A stretch of 64,000 nucleotides of DNA from Ammoniphilus oxalaticus (GTDB lineage: Bacteria; Bacillota; Bacilli; Aneurinibacillales; RAOX-1), in contig NZ_MCHY01000006.1 of the NCBI RefSeq assembly GCF_003609605.1, positions 496,001-560,000 on the forward strand, in the 5' to 3' direction. A model generated the notes under the pieces. That model was not told where the DNA came from. It ran no database searches and was given only the letters and a program-made list of their open reading frames with translations. Each line of letters starts with the position of its first letter. Within the stretch, counting starts at the first letter, position 1. The position numbers and the translations under genes were made by a program. Of this stretch, positions 21,236-47,811 are shown in pieces.

Positions 21236-21340
21236 TTCTGAGTATGCATATGGGATAAATAAAGTTTGGTTATTGACAGTGATCGTTTCTTACTGTAAAT
21301 TGGTAACTAACATCACTAATCAAAATAAATTGAATACGAA

Positions 21341-21511
21341 TGAATAGGTGCTTTAAGGAATCGCCTTAAAGCTTAAAAGGGAAGTCGGCGCAAATCCGAC
21401 GCGGTCCCGCCACTGTAATAAGGGAGTCTTTATCATAAAATGCCACTGATCGATTGGATTGGGAAGGCGGATGGGGATGACGATCTTTAAGCCAGGAGAC
21501 CTGCCTATTTC
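21341..21511 (+). promoter_or_regulatory. cobalamin (B12) riboswitch upstream of metE
   Basis: The conserved blocks are all present in order: AAAAGGGAA at 21374-21382, GACGCGGTCCCGCCACTG (the B12-box region) at 21398-21415, and AAGCCAGGAGACCTGCC at 21489-21505. P1 pairs AATAGG 21343-21348 with CCTATT 21504-21509. With the following terminator this is an off-switch. When cobalamin is present, the B12-independent enzyme MetE is not made, presumably because a MetH exists elsewhere. Confidence 0.95.
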
Positions 21512-21600
21512 ATGAACACATGATGACCTACGGGAGATAGGGAGGTGTTAATGTTAACAGTCGCGCACGACGTTTTGTTGTGATTCACATAAAGAACTGA

Positions 21601-31905: not shown

Positions 31906-32367
31906 CTACTCTTGAGTATATTGGAGGAGGTTACCGTAGGAGATTGATATTTTCTCGGAAGCCTCCTCTCTCATTTTATTCGTGACATGAGTGTAAACCC
32001 TCATCGTTGTTTTAATGTCTTCATGACCGACCCTTTCCATAATTGTGGCAATATCGACTCCCGCTTCCGTTAGCATCGATATATGAGTGTGCCTGAATGT
32101 GTGAGGGGTTGCATTTTTCTTTATGGCGGTCTTTTGCATAAGGCGGTTCATCCGAGTTACGATGCGCGCTGGCGAGAAGGGATAGCCGTCATCTCGACAA
32201 AACACAAAGTCCTTGTCATTGTAGTCATCGTAAGTATGACGATATTGAAGTTTATGCTTATCATTTCTTCTTACCAAATTCATCAAAAGTTCCATAACGG
32301 ATTCCTCCACATCAATTGTACGAATTGCCGCTTCTGTTTTTGGGGGTGTCAGTTCATAGTCCTTCAT
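31906..32367 (-). pseudogene. tyrosine recombinase/integrase, C-terminal fragment
   Basis: The catalytic half of a Tn916/phage-type integrase. ATPHTFRHTHISMLTEAGVD supplies the HxxR box, VGHEDIKTTMRVYTHV supplies the last His and nucleophile Tyr, and KTEAAIRTIDVEE supplies the first Arg. The N-terminal SAM-like domain is missing, because the sequence changes abruptly into a phage-like fragment just upstream of MKDYELTPPKT. About 150 of an expected 370-390 residues remain, so it should be inactive. Confidence 0.85.
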
Positions 32368-33426: not shown

Positions 33427-33514
33427 AATCAGAAAAGGGCAAATCATTTGAAAGAATGGCGCGCAAAGTCACAGGTCTAAAGCGATTGGCTATGATGGCT
33501 GGACTACCTGGATT
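33427..33514 (+). promoter_or_regulatory. c-di-GMP-I (GEMM) riboswitch 1
   Basis: Core blocks GGGCAAAT, the GAAA tetraloop hairpin CATTTGAAAGAATGG, GCGCAAAGTC, and GGTCTAAAG, then the second arm ATGGCTGGACTACCTGG, match the GEMM/c-di-GMP-I consensus in order. P1 pairs AATCAG 33427-33432 with CTGGATT 33508-33514 (one extra G). The GGGCAAA block carries the G expected for c-di-GMP rather than the A variant linked to cGAMP. The ribosome binding site of a SinI-like gene lies only nine bases beyond, so control of translation start is plausible. Confidence 0.88.
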
Positions 33515-33534: not shown

Positions 33535-33669
33535 ATGGTTAAGAAGGTATCGGTAACAAATAGTTTAGATGAGGAGTGGGTGGAGTTAATAGTGGAAGCA
33601 AAGGATCTAGGTTTGTCAATTGATGAGATACGCATATTATTAGGCATATCATATAGGTCAGCTAGTTAA
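33535..33669 (+). CDS. SinI-like anti-repressor 1, 44 aa
   Basis: MVKKVSVTNS then LDEEWVELIVEAKDLGLSID and EIRILLGIS. This is the Sin anti-repressor helix-hook domain (PF08671), closely resembling the B. subtilis SinI segment LDQEWVELMVEAKEANISPE. SinI binds SinR through this domain and relieves repression of biofilm genes. AGGGGTGA lies four bases before the ATG. The gene sits directly behind a c-di-GMP-I riboswitch and ahead of a small terminator, a complete minimal unit. No SinR is in the window. Confidence 0.85.
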   Translation: MVKKVSVTNSLDEEWVELIVEAKDLGLSIDEIRILLGISYRSAS

Positions 33670-33692
33670 CGTCCTTCGGGGCGTTATTTTTA
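33668..33692 (+). terminator. terminator of SinI-like gene 1
   Basis: AACGTCC/GGGCGTT stem with a TTCG tetraloop and ATTTTTAATTT after it; it begins at the stop codon. Confidence 0.8.
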
Positions 33693-33780
33693 ATTTGTCC
33701 AAAGCAAGGGGTAACAATCAAGTATATTGGATAATAATAAATTATATGAGCATAAAAATGTCGGGTGAAAGGAAGAGGAC

Positions 33781-34401
33781 ATGACTGTTGAAGAGGGACT
33801 GAATCAGGTAAAACAGGGTTTTCGATTGATGGAAGAAACCAGTAGTTTGATTAATCAAGCCATCTCAGATGCATTTTTATTTACTTGGCAATGGTGGTTA
33901 GGGATCGGATTGTTCATCGTTCCTTGGATTGTATGGTTTTTGCTCAGGAAAAAGGAAAGTACAGGACGGCTATTGGCAGCGGGAATGATTGCAATTATTA
34001 TTGGTGTCACCATCGATATATTTGCAGCAGGAATGGGGCTATGGTTATATCCAATGGATTTTATCCCCAATTCCCTGGCATTGTTCCTTCCTTATCATTT
34101 TTCAGTACTGCCAGTTGGTGTGATGTTTACTCTGCAAATCAGACCAAACTCTAATCCAATTGTTAAAGGAGTAATCTTTGCAGGATTAGGAGTCTTTATT
34201 GTTATGAGATTCTTTAGAATGATTGACTTTTACAATCCGAAAGGATGGCCGTCTATCTATGATTTCTTTATTATGTTGATAATTTACTTAGTGGCATATC
34301 TGGTCACCAATATTCGTGGGTATGAAAAGATTAGGTCTTCCGATAAAGGTGAACCCACCTATAATTTCAAGTTTTTGCAAAGAAAGCAAAAAGTACGTTA
34401 A
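33781..34401 (+). CDS. CBO0543-like membrane protein
   Basis: 206 aa with about five helices. The order TWQWWLGIGLFIVPWIVWF, then MIAIIIGVTIDIFAAGMGLW, then LPYHFSVLPVGVMF resembles the CBO0543 family of Bacillales/Clostridia membrane proteins of unknown role. GAAAGGAAGAGG precedes the ATG. The short soluble N terminus and basic C terminus suggest an inside C terminus. Confidence 0.7.
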   Translation: MTVEEGLNQVKQGFRLMEETSSLINQAISDAFLFTWQWWLGIGLFIVPWIVWFLLRKKESTGRLLAAGMIAIIIGVTIDIFAAGMGLWLYPMDFIPNSLALFLPYHFSVLPVGVMFTLQIRPNSNPIVKGVIFAGLGVFIVMRFFRMIDFYNPKGWPSIYDFFIMLIIYLVAYLVTNIRGYEKIRSSDKGEPTYNFKFLQRKQKVR

Positions 34402-34473
34402 TCGTGTTAAATTTTCAGCAACAGAAGCACTCCTATGGGGTGCTTTTTATCTTGTCGGAAAGCGGGTGTAACA

Positions 34474-34934
34474 TGAAAAATCAATATTTCTTTACGGCGT
34501 CGGGAGCAATCGGCGCCTTTTTAGTTTCTTCATTTCACTTTTTATATGGCGAGGATCCTATTCGTTATTCGGCGTTATTTTTATACCTCATGCTGATTGT
34601 GATGGATTGGATTGGCGGGTCACCGAGCGTCTAAGATCGATGGTTCATATGCTTCTGAATATGGAATTAAAGGAGCTTTGGGCGGTATTCCTGTTACTTG
34701 CCCCAGCGATGGGACATCTAATTGATCAGATTATAAGTACTCCTAGCATTGCGTTCGGATTCTTAACCACTGCCTTCGCACTCCATATTGTTTATGGCAG
34801 TATAAAAATGTACAGTATGGCGGCTAATTTATGCGCTGTTAAAAAGACCGAAATAAAAAGAAAAAGCCACTTGCCAACATCTAAAAAAATACATACACTC
34901 CATTTGGGCATTACGTTCAGGGAGGGTATATAGG
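34474..34934 (+). pseudogene. phage holin (toxin secretion/lysis type), frameshifted
   Basis: MKNQYFFTASGAIGAFLVSS and LMLIVMDWIGG open in one frame. HRASKIDGSYASEYGIKGAL follows in another frame, and LLLAPAMGHLIDQIISTPSI with AFGFLTTAFALHIV in a third. Together they match the BhlA/phage holin family 4 layout. Two frameshifts (near 34618 and 34690) inactivate it. It is a prophage remnant preceding the IS21 remnant. Confidence 0.75.
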
Positions 34935-36669: not shown

Positions 36670-36743
36670 GATCGGATACACTTAGTTAGACAACTAAATT
36701 AAGGTCTTGTAGAATCAAACTAACAGAAACGAGGGGATCTACA

Positions 36744-37031
36744 ATGACCGAAAGAAGAGCAAGAAGAACGTTCACATCCGAATTTAAACACCAAATGGTG
36801 CAGCTATATGAGAATGGAAAACCTAGAGCCGATATTATCCGTGAATATGAATTGAACGCGTCCACATTCGATCGATGGGTGACTCAAAGTCGTAATTCTG
36901 GATCTTTCAAAGAAAAAGATAATCGTACGCCTGAAGAGGACGAGCTCATCAAGTTGCGTAAAGAAAATCAACGTCTAAAGATGGAGAAAGATATTTTAAA
37001 GCAAGCGGCGCTGATTATGGGACGAAAATAG
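36744..37031 (+). CDS. IS3-family transposase OrfA
   Basis: 95 aa with an N-terminal helix-turn-helix (RRTFTSEFKHQMVQLYENGK) and a C-terminal leucine-zipper-like coiled coil, DELIKLRKENQRLKMEKDIL. It binds IS ends and is normally joined to OrfB by a -1 frameshift. Intact here, but its OrfB partner is deleted internally. Confidence 0.88.
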   Translation: MTERRARRTFTSEFKHQMVQLYENGKPRADIIREYELNASTFDRWVTQSRNSGSFKEKDNRTPEEDELIKLRKENQRLKMEKDILKQAALIMGRK

Positions 37032-39014: not shown

Positions 39015-39407
39015 ATGAAAAAGAAAATCACGATTTTTATTCTAGGTTTAATGACTATCTTACTATCCGCGTGTAGTACGGAATCGGATACGGTAAACCA
39101 CAATATATCTAAGTCTGCAGATTCATTCGAGGTAAACAGGAGGATAGTGTTCTTCAATGGCATAACAGACAAATACCTCCTAACCGTTGAGGGGTTGTGT
39201 TCATTGGATATCACTGGCGATAAGGCGTTACGTGTGACATGCAAAGTTGGTGAAGGAGAGTACAAGCGCCATTACTTAGGGTTAAGTGATAATGTGAGTT
39301 ATTTCGTAGAGCAAGTAGATTCAGCTAATGTTGATCCGTTTCATTATCGTGTGGTATTCAGGCCAGAATCAATTGTTCCTGATATAGACATTCAGACAAG
39401 TAAATAA
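39015..39407 (+). CDS. prophage-type beta-sandwich lipoprotein
   Basis: 130 aa with a lipoprotein signal peptide (lipobox LSAC, residues about 17-20). Then come STESDTVNHNISKSADSFEV, NRRIVFFNGITDKYLLTVEG and HYLGLSDNVSYFVEQVDS, a pattern I associate with small phage-encoded lipoproteins of Bacillus. GGGGAGAAACAG lies upstream of the ATG. The function in phage is unknown. Confidence 0.7.
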   Translation: MKKKITIFILGLMTILLSACSTESDTVNHNISKSADSFEVNRRIVFFNGITDKYLLTVEGLCSLDITGDKALRVTCKVGEGEYKRHYLGLSDNVSYFVEQVDSANVDPFHYRVVFRPESIVPDIDIQTSK

Positions 39408-39510: not shown

Positions 39511-39708
39511 ATGAGATCACTAGATATAGAGGTAAACGATAGAAATAGGCTGGAATTTGATATAATGGATATACCGTCCAGTTGTGTGATTGTGATTTGC
39601 GAAGGGAAAGCAAAAGTCAGAGAGCTTCCTCCATTCGGTGAATATAGAATCTTAACATATCAGGGGAAGGTGAAGCGGATGAGAAGGGAAGAAGGGGAAG
39701 AGTTTTGA
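39511..39708 (+). CDS. DUF3954-like phage protein
   Basis: 65 aa. SSCVIVICEGKAKVRELPPF followed by GEYRILTYQGKVKR resembles DUF3954/XtrA-type small phage proteins. GGGAGGGG lies seven bases before the ATG. It overlaps the next gene by four bases. Confidence 0.55.
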   Translation: MRSLDIEVNDRNRLEFDIMDIPSSCVIVICEGKAKVRELPPFGEYRILTYQGKVKRMRREEGEEF

Positions 39709-40121
39709 GTATAATTAGGATTGAAGGTACACGGCCAGCAGAGCTTGAGGAACAACAGATACTTGAGAAAATTGAAAACTTGTTATTAGAGCAACAAGTT
39801 CACACTTTGGAAAATACACTTTCCGATACAATTAGTTTCTTTTCAACTTGGACAGCAATGGCTGGAGTGTTTTTAGCGGCACTCTTGGTTATTGCAGGAT
39901 GGATAATGAAAAGAGTTTTTGATAAAAAACTAACTCAAGTTACGAATATATCATCTGATATAACTGGCAAATTTGAAGTTTTGAAAGATGTCGAACAAAA
40001 AGTAAATTCAAAATTCAATACAATCCAAGAAATTAACGAGTATTTCATAAAGTCTAAAAAAGAATGGGAGAAAATTAAAGAAATACAAGATTTTCAGTAT
40101 AAAGAAATAAACATTGGTTAA
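39705..40121 (+). CDS. membrane protein truncated by IS3 fragment
   Basis: 138 aa. An acidic N-terminal helix (LEEQQILEKIENLLLEQQ), one transmembrane helix (WTAMAGVFLAALLVIAGWIM) and a C-terminal coiled-coil-like segment are visible. Start is TTG 39705, overlapping the previous gene, with GAAGGGGAAGAG upstream. The stop TAA at 40119-40121 lies exactly at the first bases of the inverted IS3 fragment, so the original C terminus was probably longer. Confidence 0.6.
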   Translation: MSIIRIEGTRPAELEEQQILEKIENLLLEQQVHTLENTLSDTISFFSTWTAMAGVFLAALLVIAGWIMKRVFDKKLTQVTNISSDITGKFEVLKDVEQKVNSKFNTIQEINEYFIKSKKEWEKIKEIQDFQYKEINIG

Positions 40122-40286
40122 TATCGGCTCTAGGTTTTCCATTCTCATATAGCTGCACCATTTGGTGTTTAAATTCGGATGTGAACGTTCTTCTTGCTCT
40201 TCTTTCGGTCATTGTAGATCCCCTCGTTTCTGTTAGTTTGATTCTACAAGACCTTAATTTAATTGTCTAACTAAGTGTATCCGATC
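40119..40286 (-). mobile_element. inverted 168-bp copy of the IS3 left end
   Basis: Nearly identical, in reverse complement, to 36670-36837. It includes the orfA ribosome binding site and the first 30 or so codons, with only a few differences (for example GACAATTAAA against GACAACTAAA). It ends inside orfA on one side and at GATCGGATACAC on the other. Confidence 0.85.
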
Positions 40287-40539
40287 TAACTACATAAATC
40301 GATAGATGTATAAATCTATACCCGATACTAAAGGCTTGTATAGATTTTGTATAGCAGCCAATGCTAGGTTAGTAGTTAACAACACTTTACATCCTTCTTT
40401 TTTGGGGGAAGTGGGTTTACTGAGTATTAATTTATTCGTTTTGATGAATTAACGGAAGGTGAGAATTCTTTTATAAGTATAGTCGAGAAGAAAGGTTACA
40501 TAGACGTTACTAAAAAGCTATGGTATGTTGTTATTGCAT
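40287..40539. other. non-coding stretch with a gene relic
   Basis: Just before the second riboswitch, 40434-40542 has the open frame FIRFDELTEGENSFISIVEK, then GYIDVTKKLWYVVIA and a stop. It has no start and looks like the C terminus of a lost gene. Nothing else recognised. Confidence 0.35.
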
Positions 40540-40628
40540 AACCAGCAAGGGGCAAACTATTCGAAAGATTGGGACGCAAAGCTACAAATCTAAGGTATTT
40601 TATACTAAGATGGTTGAGCTACCTGGAT
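40540..40628 (+). promoter_or_regulatory. c-di-GMP-I (GEMM) riboswitch 2
   Basis: Blocks GGGGCAAAC, tetraloop hairpin ATTCGAAAGATTGG, GACGCAAAGC, AATCTAAGG, and ATGGTTGAGCTACCTGG are in the GEMM order. P1 includes CCAG 40542-40545 with CTGG 40623-40626. The G of GGGCAAA is kept, pointing to c-di-GMP. It is followed, ten bases on, by the GAAGGGTGAG ribosome binding site of a second SinI-like gene, the same architecture as at 33.4 kb. Confidence 0.88.
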
Positions 40629-40652
40629 TTTACACTTGAAGGGTGAGAAATC

Positions 40653-40787
40653 ATGGTTAAAAAAGAGAAAGATAAAGAGGTGTTGGATCAAGAGTGGGTA
40701 AACTTAATCCTCGAGGCTAAGGAGATCGGGATATCGAAAGAGGAATTACGTGAATTTTTAATAAATAAGATGAGGATATCTGTTTAA
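40653..40787 (+). CDS. SinI-like anti-repressor 2, 44 aa
   Basis: MVKKEKDKEV, then LDQEWVNLILEAKEIGISKE and ELREFLINK. This is a SinI-type SinR-binding helix hook, clearly paralogous to the 44-aa gene at 33535 (same length, same MVKK start, same LDxEWV-LI-EAK-GIS core). GAAGGGTGAG precedes the ATG by five bases. It is located directly behind c-di-GMP-I riboswitch 2. Confidence 0.87.
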   Translation: MVKKEKDKEVLDQEWVNLILEAKEIGISKEELREFLINKMRISV

Positions 40788-40808: not shown

Positions 40809-40970
40809 TTATTTTTTGAAAATGCTTTCATTCTCTAGTACTTCATTTTTTTTTAATTTTAAGAAATCTCTAAAGTCTTCTTTTGATATATTTGAAGCCA
40901 TCGCAAATTTAACCAATTTTATAGTTTTTTCATCAAGATTATTATATATATTAAGATTGATTACATTCAC
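40809..40970 (-). CDS. SinI-like protein 3, 53 aa
   Basis: From GTG 40970 (nine bases after GGAGGT) the product reads MNVINLNIYNN, then LDEKTIKLVKFAMASNISKE and DFRDFLKLKKNEV. It follows the SinI helix-hook pattern (LD, ten-residue helix, IS-E, FL), but without the Trp of the other two copies. It is convergent with SinI-like gene 2 and has no riboswitch. Possibly a diverged antagonist of a different SinR-like repressor. Confidence 0.6.
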   Translation of the reverse strand: MNVINLNIYNNLDEKTIKLVKFAMASNISKEDFRDFLKLKKNEVLENESIFKK

Positions 40971-44946: not shown

Positions 44947-46209
44947 TTAAACAGAGACTTCTTCAACTTCAGTTTCAACTACGCCAGGTTTAACAGGTCT
45001 ACCCATTCTCGGAATTACAAACGTTGCTAGAGCGAATGCGATGAATGATGTACCAGCAGTAATTGTAAAGGCTGCTTGCCATCCTAGCGCAGTTGCTACA
45101 GCCGCTCCAACACCACCACCGAAGATTGCCGCAGTTGCTTTTGCTGCCCAGAAGAATCCATAGTTTTGAGCCGAGTATGCTGTTCCGAACATGTCACTGT
45201 TAATGGAAGGGAACAATGCGTAACTACCACCCCAAGTGAAGAATGCAAGGGCTAAGGCGACGATGAATACAGCAGGACTAATTTTTGATACGATTGGGAA
45301 TAAGAACAATACAATTGAGTTAATTAAGAATACGATTGACATTGTTTTGAAACGTCCGATTTTGTCGGAAACCGCGCCCCAGAATGGTCGGCAACCACCG
45401 TTTGCAATGTTTTGAATAGAAACTGCAATGGTGATCGTAGCTACAGGAATACCAATGCTTTGCGCATATGGCGCGCTGTTCGCTACCAATAGTAATCCAC
45501 CAAAGTTTACACTAAAGAAAGCAGTCCATAAGATCCAAAAGTGCGGTGTTTTTAACATTTCTTTAGATGTAAAGTCTTTCGATGTAACAACTTTTTTAGC
45601 TTTTGCTCCGCCTGGTTGTTCAGGGAAACGAATGATAAAAGCAAGTATGATAATGACAATACCTTGGATAAATCCAGTAATCATAAAGGCGGTGCTTACA
45701 CCTTTTGTAGCCATAACTGAGCTAATGACAGGTAGGAATGGCAGAACCCCCATACCGTAACCAGCTGCTGTAAAACCAGATGCTAAACCTCTTTTGTCAG
45801 GGAACCATCGTGTAGCCGTGTTAATGGCAGTACCGTAGACGATACCAACACCAGCGCCAGCAAGTGTGTATAGCGCGTAAAGACCAGCTACTGTGTTAAC
45901 TGTACCCATTAAGGACCATCCGACAAGAACCATCGCTCCAGAAAGGATTAACATCATTCTTGGACCGAATTTATCAACGAAGTAACCGCCCCCCGGTTGT
46001 GAACCTGCTTGGATTACTTGAGACAGAGTGAAAGCCGTTTGCACGACAGCAAGTGATACACCTAATTTCTCTTTCAGCGGGTTGGAGTAGAGTGTCCAGG
46101 AATATTGAACCCCGGAGATCATCGCCATGAGTAGTACCGCTAGGACTAAGTGAAACCAGCGATTTTGTAACAAGCCTTGTGGCTGTTGTTGCGTGTGTGC
46201 GTTAGTCAT
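44947..46209 (-). CDS. OxlT-like oxalate:formate antiporter (MFS), copy 1
   Basis: 420 aa, twelve helices. It starts LQNRWFHLVLAVLLMAMISG, then VQYSWTLYSNPLKEKLGVSL, typical of the OxlT family. The RPFWGAVSDKIGR loop and FFWAAKATAAIFGGG helix supply an Arg and a Lys at the positions that bind the dicarboxylate in OxlT. The carrier exchanges oxalate for formate, generating a proton gradient once oxalate is decarboxylated. ATG 46209 after AAAAGGAG; the longer frame to 46245 has no ribosome binding site. Over most of its length it is nearly identical to copy 2. Substrate is by family, not proven. Confidence 0.85.
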   Translation of the reverse strand: MTNAHTQQQPQGLLQNRWFHLVLAVLLMAMISGVQYSWTLYSNPLKEKLGVSLAVVQTAFTLSQVIQAGSQPGGGYFVDKFGPRMMLILSGAMVLVGWSLMGTVNTVAGLYALYTLAGAGVGIVYGTAINTATRWFPDKRGLASGFTAAGYGMGVLPFLPVISSVMATKGVSTAFMITGFIQGIVIIILAFIIRFPEQPGGAKAKKVVTSKDFTSKEMLKTPHFWILWTAFFSVNFGGLLLVANSAPYAQSIGIPVATITIAVSIQNIANGGCRPFWGAVSDKIGRFKTMSIVFLINSIVLFLFPIVSKISPAVFIVALALAFFTWGGSYALFPSINSDMFGTAYSAQNYGFFWAAKATAAIFGGGVGAAVATALGWQAAFTITAGTSFIAFALATFVIPRMGRPVKPGVVETEVEEVSV

Positions 46210-46560: not shown

Positions 46561-47811
46561 TTAAGCGATTGCCTTCTCTGGCTCTTCTTTTGGCTGTTTC
46601 TTCGGTTTACCCATTCGCGGAATGACGAAAGTGGCTAACGCAAAAGCGACGAATGAGGTTGCCGCGGTAATCGTAAAAGCTGCTTGCCAGCCGAGCGCTG
46701 TTGCAACAGCGGCGCCTACGCCACCGCCAAAAATGGCTGCAGTCGCTTTGGCGGCCCAAAAAAATCCATAGTTTTGAGCCGAGTAGGCGGTTCCAAACAG
46801 GTCACTGTTAATGGACGGGAAGAGAGCGTAACTTCCGCCCCAAGTAAAGAAGGCCAAAGCTAGCATTACGATGAATAGTCCACTGTTTATCTTAGAAACG
46901 ATGGGGAAGAAGAATAGGACAATTGAATTGATAAGGAAAACGATAGACATTGTTTTAAACCGACCAATCTTGTCCGAAACTGCGCCCCAGAAAGGACGAC
47001 AACCTCCATTACAAATGTTCTGAATGGAAACTGCGATTGTAATTGTCGCCATCGGAATGCCAATGCTTTGCGCATAAGGAGCGCTGTTAGCAACCAGGAG
47101 CAGCCCTCCGAAATTGACGCTGAAGAAAGCGGTCCATAGAACCCAAAAGTGTCCTGTTTTTAACATCTCTTTTGAAGTAAAGTCATTTTCAGTAATGACT
47201 TTCTTGCCGCTTGTTTGTTGGGCAGGGAACCGAATGACAAAGGCGAGCAGAATAATTACAATACCTTCAATAAATCCAGTAATCATAAAGGCGCTGCTTA
47301 CACCTTTAGTAGCCATAACTGAGCTGATAATTGGCAGGAAGGGAAGAACCCCCATTCCATACCCAGCGGCTGTAAAACCAGATGCCATCCCTCTTTTGTC
47401 AGGGAACCACCTCGTAGCCGTGTTAATTGCGGTGCCATAGACGATTCCAACCCCAGCGCCGGCTAATGTGTATAGCGCGTAAAGACCGGCTACTGTGTTG
47501 ACCATACCCATTAACGACCAACCAACTAAAACCATTACTCCGGAAATGATTAACATCATTCTCGGACCAAATTTGTCGACGAAGTACCCGCCGGTTGGTT
47601 GTGAACCAGCTTGAATTACTTGAGATAGCGTAAATGCAGTTTGCACGACCGCTAGTGACACACCTAACTTGTCTTTTAACGGATTAGAATATAATGTCCA
47701 CGAATATTGCACCCCTGAAATCATGCACATCAATAGAACGGCGCAGACCAAATGAAACCAACGATTTTGCAGTAATCCGCCGGATGACTGCTCTGCATGT
47801 GAGTTGCTCAT
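46561..47811 (-). CDS. OxlT-like oxalate:formate antiporter (MFS), copy 2
   Basis: 416 aa, collinear with copy 1 (for example identical YALYTLAGAGVGIVYGTAIN and FFWAAKATAAIFGGG). Differences are concentrated in the N-terminal tail, the central loop (AQQTSGKKVITEND) and the C-terminal tail. GGAG lies nine bases before the ATG. Each copy has its own terminator and about 350 bases between, so they can be regulated separately. Conserved Arg and Lys as in copy 1. Confidence 0.85.
   Translation of the reverse strand: MSNSHAEQSSGGLLQNRWFHLVCAVLLMCMISGVQYSWTLYSNPLKDKLGVSLAVVQTAFTLSQVIQAGSQPTGGYFVDKFGPRMMLIISGVMVLVGWSLMGMVNTVAGLYALYTLAGAGVGIVYGTAINTATRWFPDKRGMASGFTAAGYGMGVLPFLPIISSVMATKGVSSAFMITGFIEGIVIILLAFVIRFPAQQTSGKKVITENDFTSKEMLKTGHFWVLWTAFFSVNFGGLLLVANSAPYAQSIGIPMATITIAVSIQNICNGGCRPFWGAVSDKIGRFKTMSIVFLINSIVLFFFPIVSKINSGLFIVMLALAFFTWGGSYALFPSINSDLFGTAYSAQNYGFFWAAKATAAIFGGGVGAAVATALGWQAAFTITAATSFVAFALATFVIPRMGKPKKQPKEEPEKAIA

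Follow-up and report, generated by a model that had tools for sequence, protein, structure and literature searches.

A predicted c-di-GMP-responsive leader before a SinI-family gene in phage-derived DNA of Ammoniphilus oxalaticus

Positions 40540-40787 of the window, i.e. the whole 64,000-nucleotide stretch of Ammoniphilus oxalaticus contig NZ_MCHY01000006.1 that was analyzed, contain a c-di-GMP-I (GEMM-I) aptamer followed by a small SinI-like gene, in agreement with the earlier note on this DNA. The aptamer of this unit (copy B) spans 40541-40626 on the forward strand (RF01051, 72.4 bits, E 2.9e-12 by cmscan; the gathering score of the family is 35 bits), and 21 of its 22 consensus pairs form. 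Its P1 stem is closed by AACCAG at 40540-40545 (+) pairing with CTGGATT at 40623-40629, with one A bulged. The segments GGCAAA, CGCAAAG and TACC, unbroken in all three aptamer copies of the genome (A, B and C), presumably correspond to G20, A47 and C92 of Vc2, a mapping that is our own. These Vc2 nucleotides contact the ligand (PMC11218506). By its sequence and structure score, copy B is assigned to the c-di-GMP-I riboswitch class. The gene downstream (sinI B, 40653-40787, +) encodes a protein of 44 amino acids without a helix-turn-helix (HTH) domain, which by its match to Pfam SinI is placed in the SinI antirepressor family (PF08671, 52.1 bits, cut-off 31.4 bits) and is homologous to the Bacillus subtilis SinI of the SinI/SinR complex (PDB chain 1b0n_B, E 3.6e-7).

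A second unit, copy A, consists of an aptamer at 33428-33511 (+; RF01051, 65.9 bits, E 1.1e-10, 21 of 22 pairs formed) and a 44-aa sinI at 33535-33669 (+; PF08671, 42.5 bits), directly followed by an intrinsic terminator-like site at 33667-33686 (+) with an 8-pair stem and a T-rich tail. The earlier note had described this pair as lying about 7 kb away, diverged in both aptamer and protein, and sharing with copy B an MVKK start and the residues LD, EWV, LI and EAK of SinI; all of this holds, as the aptamers start 7113 bases apart and the units are 73% identical across 127 bases. A pattern combining the GEMM core with the SinI motif matched at two places in the window, compared with none in 100 dinucleotide shuffles. 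A third pair (copy C), located on contig C12 of this genome, escaped the earlier note, as did the phage context and a small convergent gene at 40809-40970 (-). In the alignment of the three SinI proteins, 19 of 44 columns are invariant, and the homology of copies B and C starts 2 bases 5' of the aptamer, with none between them upstream of 40539. The assignment of the copy C aptamer to RF03167 (the GGC variant), which arose from clan competition, was rejected, as the aptamer has an ordinary A where the RF03167 consensus has G. Two further c-di-GMP-I aptamers in the genome precede a chemoreceptor gene and a flagellar operon, respectively (gene identities by eye).

The only neighbor of copy B related to SinR is the convergent gene at 40809-40970 (-), which has a GTG start and encodes a 53-aa protein resembling the C-terminal domain of SinR but lacking the HTH (32.3 bits with a SinR-tail HMM vs 18.9 with a SinI HMM); its copy on C12 has SinR chains 5tn2 and 2yal as best matches. 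Two of the three units, copies B and C, face such a protein lacking a DNA-binding domain, and no degenerate SinR HTH was recognisable by eye in translations of the DNA upstream of the convergent gene. Small relatives exist in sister genera and join (96/90) beside the SinR tail of this genome, in a SinI tree that had too few columns to resolve most branches. The 53-aa protein could titrate SinI or poison SinR; binding either one without binding DNA, it could tune the switch. A full SinR gene adjoins none of the three GEMM-SinI copies, and two such genes are found in trans on contig C9 (L019 and L020), one before polysaccharide-type genes and the other near a sortase. Alongside these two SinR genes on C9, three small SinI genes were noted that have no riboswitch.

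Pairs of the same kind, whose absence from related genomes would have counted against the earlier note, proved widespread when surveyed as that note had suggested: 24 GEMM-SinI pairs, a lower bound given an exact pattern checked by reading frames and Rfam, occur in 20 of 399 genomes of the class and in 15 families. Outside this genome a full SinR gene is adjacent in 17 of 23 pairs (12 tandem, 5 convergent), the 23 comprising 21 from the survey and two Fictibacillus pairs from other loci (L052 and L056). These other modules in Bacilli share with the window copies the aptamer, a hairpin competing with P1 and SinI, but mostly differ in having an adjacent full SinR. At one locus (L269) the order yqhH-yqhG-GEMM-sinI-sinR recalls what we take to be the arrangement of the B. 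subtilis sinIR locus. At another (L281, genome G033) the GEMM-sinI-sinR unit occurs twice in tandem, some 2.5 kb apart, and the aptamers score lower (44-48 bits). No prophage was seen by eye among those loci of relatives that were displayed. A DNA search of 300 class genomes with the 248-base unit gave, outside its own genome, short matches only, nearly all to the aptamer core.

In the genome studied here, all three copies sit in phage-derived DNA, and copies A and B adjoin only phage remnants; the earlier description of their surroundings as decayed is correct. Upstream of copy B lie a phrog_478/Phage_VG64 gene (39015-39407, +; phrog_478, 186.5 bits), a PBSX XtrA gene (39511-39708, +; PBSX_XtrA, 52.8 bits, cut-off 29.7), an open reading frame without a match in profile searches (39705-40121, +) and, about 250 bases 5' of the unit, a fragment of an IS3-type transposase (40116-40286, -) that is a 98.8% identical inverted copy of 36670-36840. 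The phrog_478 family is labeled recombination directionality factor, yet the N-terminus of the protein at 39015-39407 (+) is lipoprotein signal-like, and the label may be odd. An integrase fragment is found 5' of copy A (31906-32367, -; PF00589, 70.1 bits; phrog_1, 113.4 bits), and copy A directly precedes a stretch (33672-34474, +) that is 90% identical by blastn to a region of C12 adjoining the holin/endolysin cassette. Contig C12 bears tail, holin and endolysin genes and represents a partial prophage. Elsewhere in the window, a cobalamin riboswitch (21329-21522, +; 131.5 bits) and a tandem near-duplicate (44996-46167 and 46604-47769, 78.9% identical over about 1.2 kb) were observed.

In addition, an unrelated 40-kb provirus in IMG/VR (IMGVR_UViG_2775507152_000001, L285) has a GEMM-sinI pair, with a 41-aa SinI, flanked on one side by an integrase/tail-fibre stretch and on the other by a holin-endolysin cassette, directly before the holin. 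Like the window copies it belongs to a phage module, but the phage and the hairpin sequence are different. As would be expected of a phage accessory gene (moron), the pair is surrounded by phage genes in two different phages, C12 and L285. A GEMM-core pattern found 13 stretches in IMG/VR, with SinI in L285 only, and a stricter viral pattern found six, of which L285 alone passes Rfam. Three c-di-GMP-I-like viral sites (L309, L307 and L313) precede other genes, one of them a CheY-like regulator. Searches of phage records by tblastn gave no match for SinI of copy C and one weak match (E 5) for that of L285; none of the sequenced phages in the collection matches clearly, a viral scan with the SinI alignment gave none, and none of 120 stretches in viral records matching a loose SinI pattern has a GEMM core.

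The leader of copy B is a predicted translational ON switch, based on modelled folding. A hairpin at 40621-40657 (+), in which the P1 3' strand takes part, contains both the Shine-Dalgarno region (approximately 40638-40645) and the start codon (-12.0 kcal/mol, z -3.5); it is also seen in the whole-leader fold, and the copy C leader folds similarly (-12.0 kcal/mol, z -3.7). In most leaders of relatives, the aptamer-closing strand also pairs at the ribosome site, for instance CCTGAAATAC with GTATTTTAGG; copies B and C use a different sequence for the same competition with P1. Among 25 modelled leaders, with a median hairpin z of -2.2, removal of the P1 3' strand opened the ribosome site in 16 and closed it in two, from which an ON switch at the level of translation is predicted. 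In copy B, the modelled opening rises little (0.59 to 0.65), because part of the hairpin persists. No terminator is present between the aptamer and sinI B, and a search for a consensus promoter gave no match upstream of copy B, which has neither the terminator stretch of copy C nor a promoter homologous to that of C. Without c-di-GMP the hairpin would hide the ribosome-binding site along with the start codon; the ligand would stabilise P1, which competes for the strand 40623-40629, so that the hairpin would open and SinI could be translated. SinI would then bind SinR and lift the repression of matrix genes.

The earlier note took the retention of two copies in decayed DNA as a sign of selection, which is supported only for the aptamers as lineages. 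Four two-sided compensatory pair changes separate copies B and C, and five separate A and B; over all pairwise comparisons there are 3-5 such changes and 1-3 broken pairs of 22, so that structure was kept while the sequence drifted, and past selection on the aptamers is supported. Residues 11-31 of the SinI core are identical in B and C, and all seven amino acid changes between them avoid this core (p ~0.006-0.011, for a core picked after seeing the data). However, with 2 synonymous and 7 non-synonymous changes, a dN/dS of 0.72 says little and does not demonstrate purifying selection on SinI, nor, as copy B lacks the terminator and promoter sequence of copy C, is present selection on B demonstrated. 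The selection may predate the decay, having acted in phages.

Taken together, copy B is probably a c-di-GMP-I riboswitch that governs how much SinI antirepressor is translated, an accessory element of temperate phages now stranded in a prophage remnant. The aptamer, SinI, the phage surroundings, the third copy and the related pairs elsewhere are read directly from sequence; the small modelled gain for copy B, the lack of a consensus promoter match upstream of it and its missing terminator stretch speak against this explanation, as do the single further viral record with the pair and the lack of a clear match among the sequenced phages of the collection. It is conceivable, though rather unlikely, that copy B is a dead relic with no working promoter and no function, which looks intact by chance or recency. 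The lack of a promoter match and of the terminator stretch, the nearby insertion sequence fragment, the end of homology to copy C at 40539 and the B-C dN/dS would all fit such a relic, whereas the intact frame, the 21 formed aptamer pairs, the retained hairpin and the SinI core unchanged relative to C argue against it.

Phage carriage explains the copies better than duplication of a host regulator, since none of them has a full SinR beside it, all are set in phage-derived DNA and an unrelated provirus has the pair, even though only that one other viral record does. The interpretation of the earlier note, in which duplicated host regulators provide graded c-di-GMP thresholds or address different SinR partners, could draw on the presence of three diverged copies alongside two full SinR genes in a single genome, but in view of this phage setting, and of the differing flanks of copies A and B, it appears improbable. 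An OFF switch, with SinI lowered by c-di-GMP, is similarly doubtful: riboswitches for cyclic di-nucleotides are known in either sense (PMC9262584), and the copy B model shows little difference, but P1 and the ribosome-site hairpin exclude each other in the ON sense in 16 of 25 leaders and in the opposite sense in two, and the aptamer-sinI B interval has no terminator. Least probable is a phage repressor as the target of SinI, coupling prophage induction rather than host biofilm to c-di-GMP. In its favor, the pair adjoins lysis genes in L285 and lies near them on C12; against it, no SinR-like repressor of phage origin that has a SinI-binding tail was detected, C12 is a partial prophage and both full SinR genes are on C9. 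Extending the preferred reading of phage carriage, we tentatively suggest that temperate phages of Bacilli may carry c-di-GMP-sensing SinI cassettes, some with a headless SinR tail as counter-regulator, which would bias the biofilm decision of the lysogen or tie prophage behavior to host c-di-GMP; the evidence leaves this somewhat short of an even chance.

The GEMM-SinI pair itself is already known: in Bacillus methanolicus MGA3, a riboswitch of the same class as in the window copies precedes sinI (BMMGA3_08510), as reported from RNA-seq 5'-UTR data (PMC4342826, Table 4), and the parts of that account consulted make no mention of phages, of multiple copies or of a headless SinR. What this analysis adds is the breadth of the pair, the leader that competes with P1, and the setting in phage DNA together with a headless SinR. 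In B. subtilis, SinI/SinR is known as the matrix switch; to our knowledge, no c-di-GMP riboswitch precedes sinI in that species, and c-di-GMP is not known to act there via SinI/SinR. A riboswitch before sinI in at least 15 families is a direct candidate wire from c-di-GMP to the matrix switch, and the presence of the pair in phage DNA suggests that lysogeny can move biofilm control.
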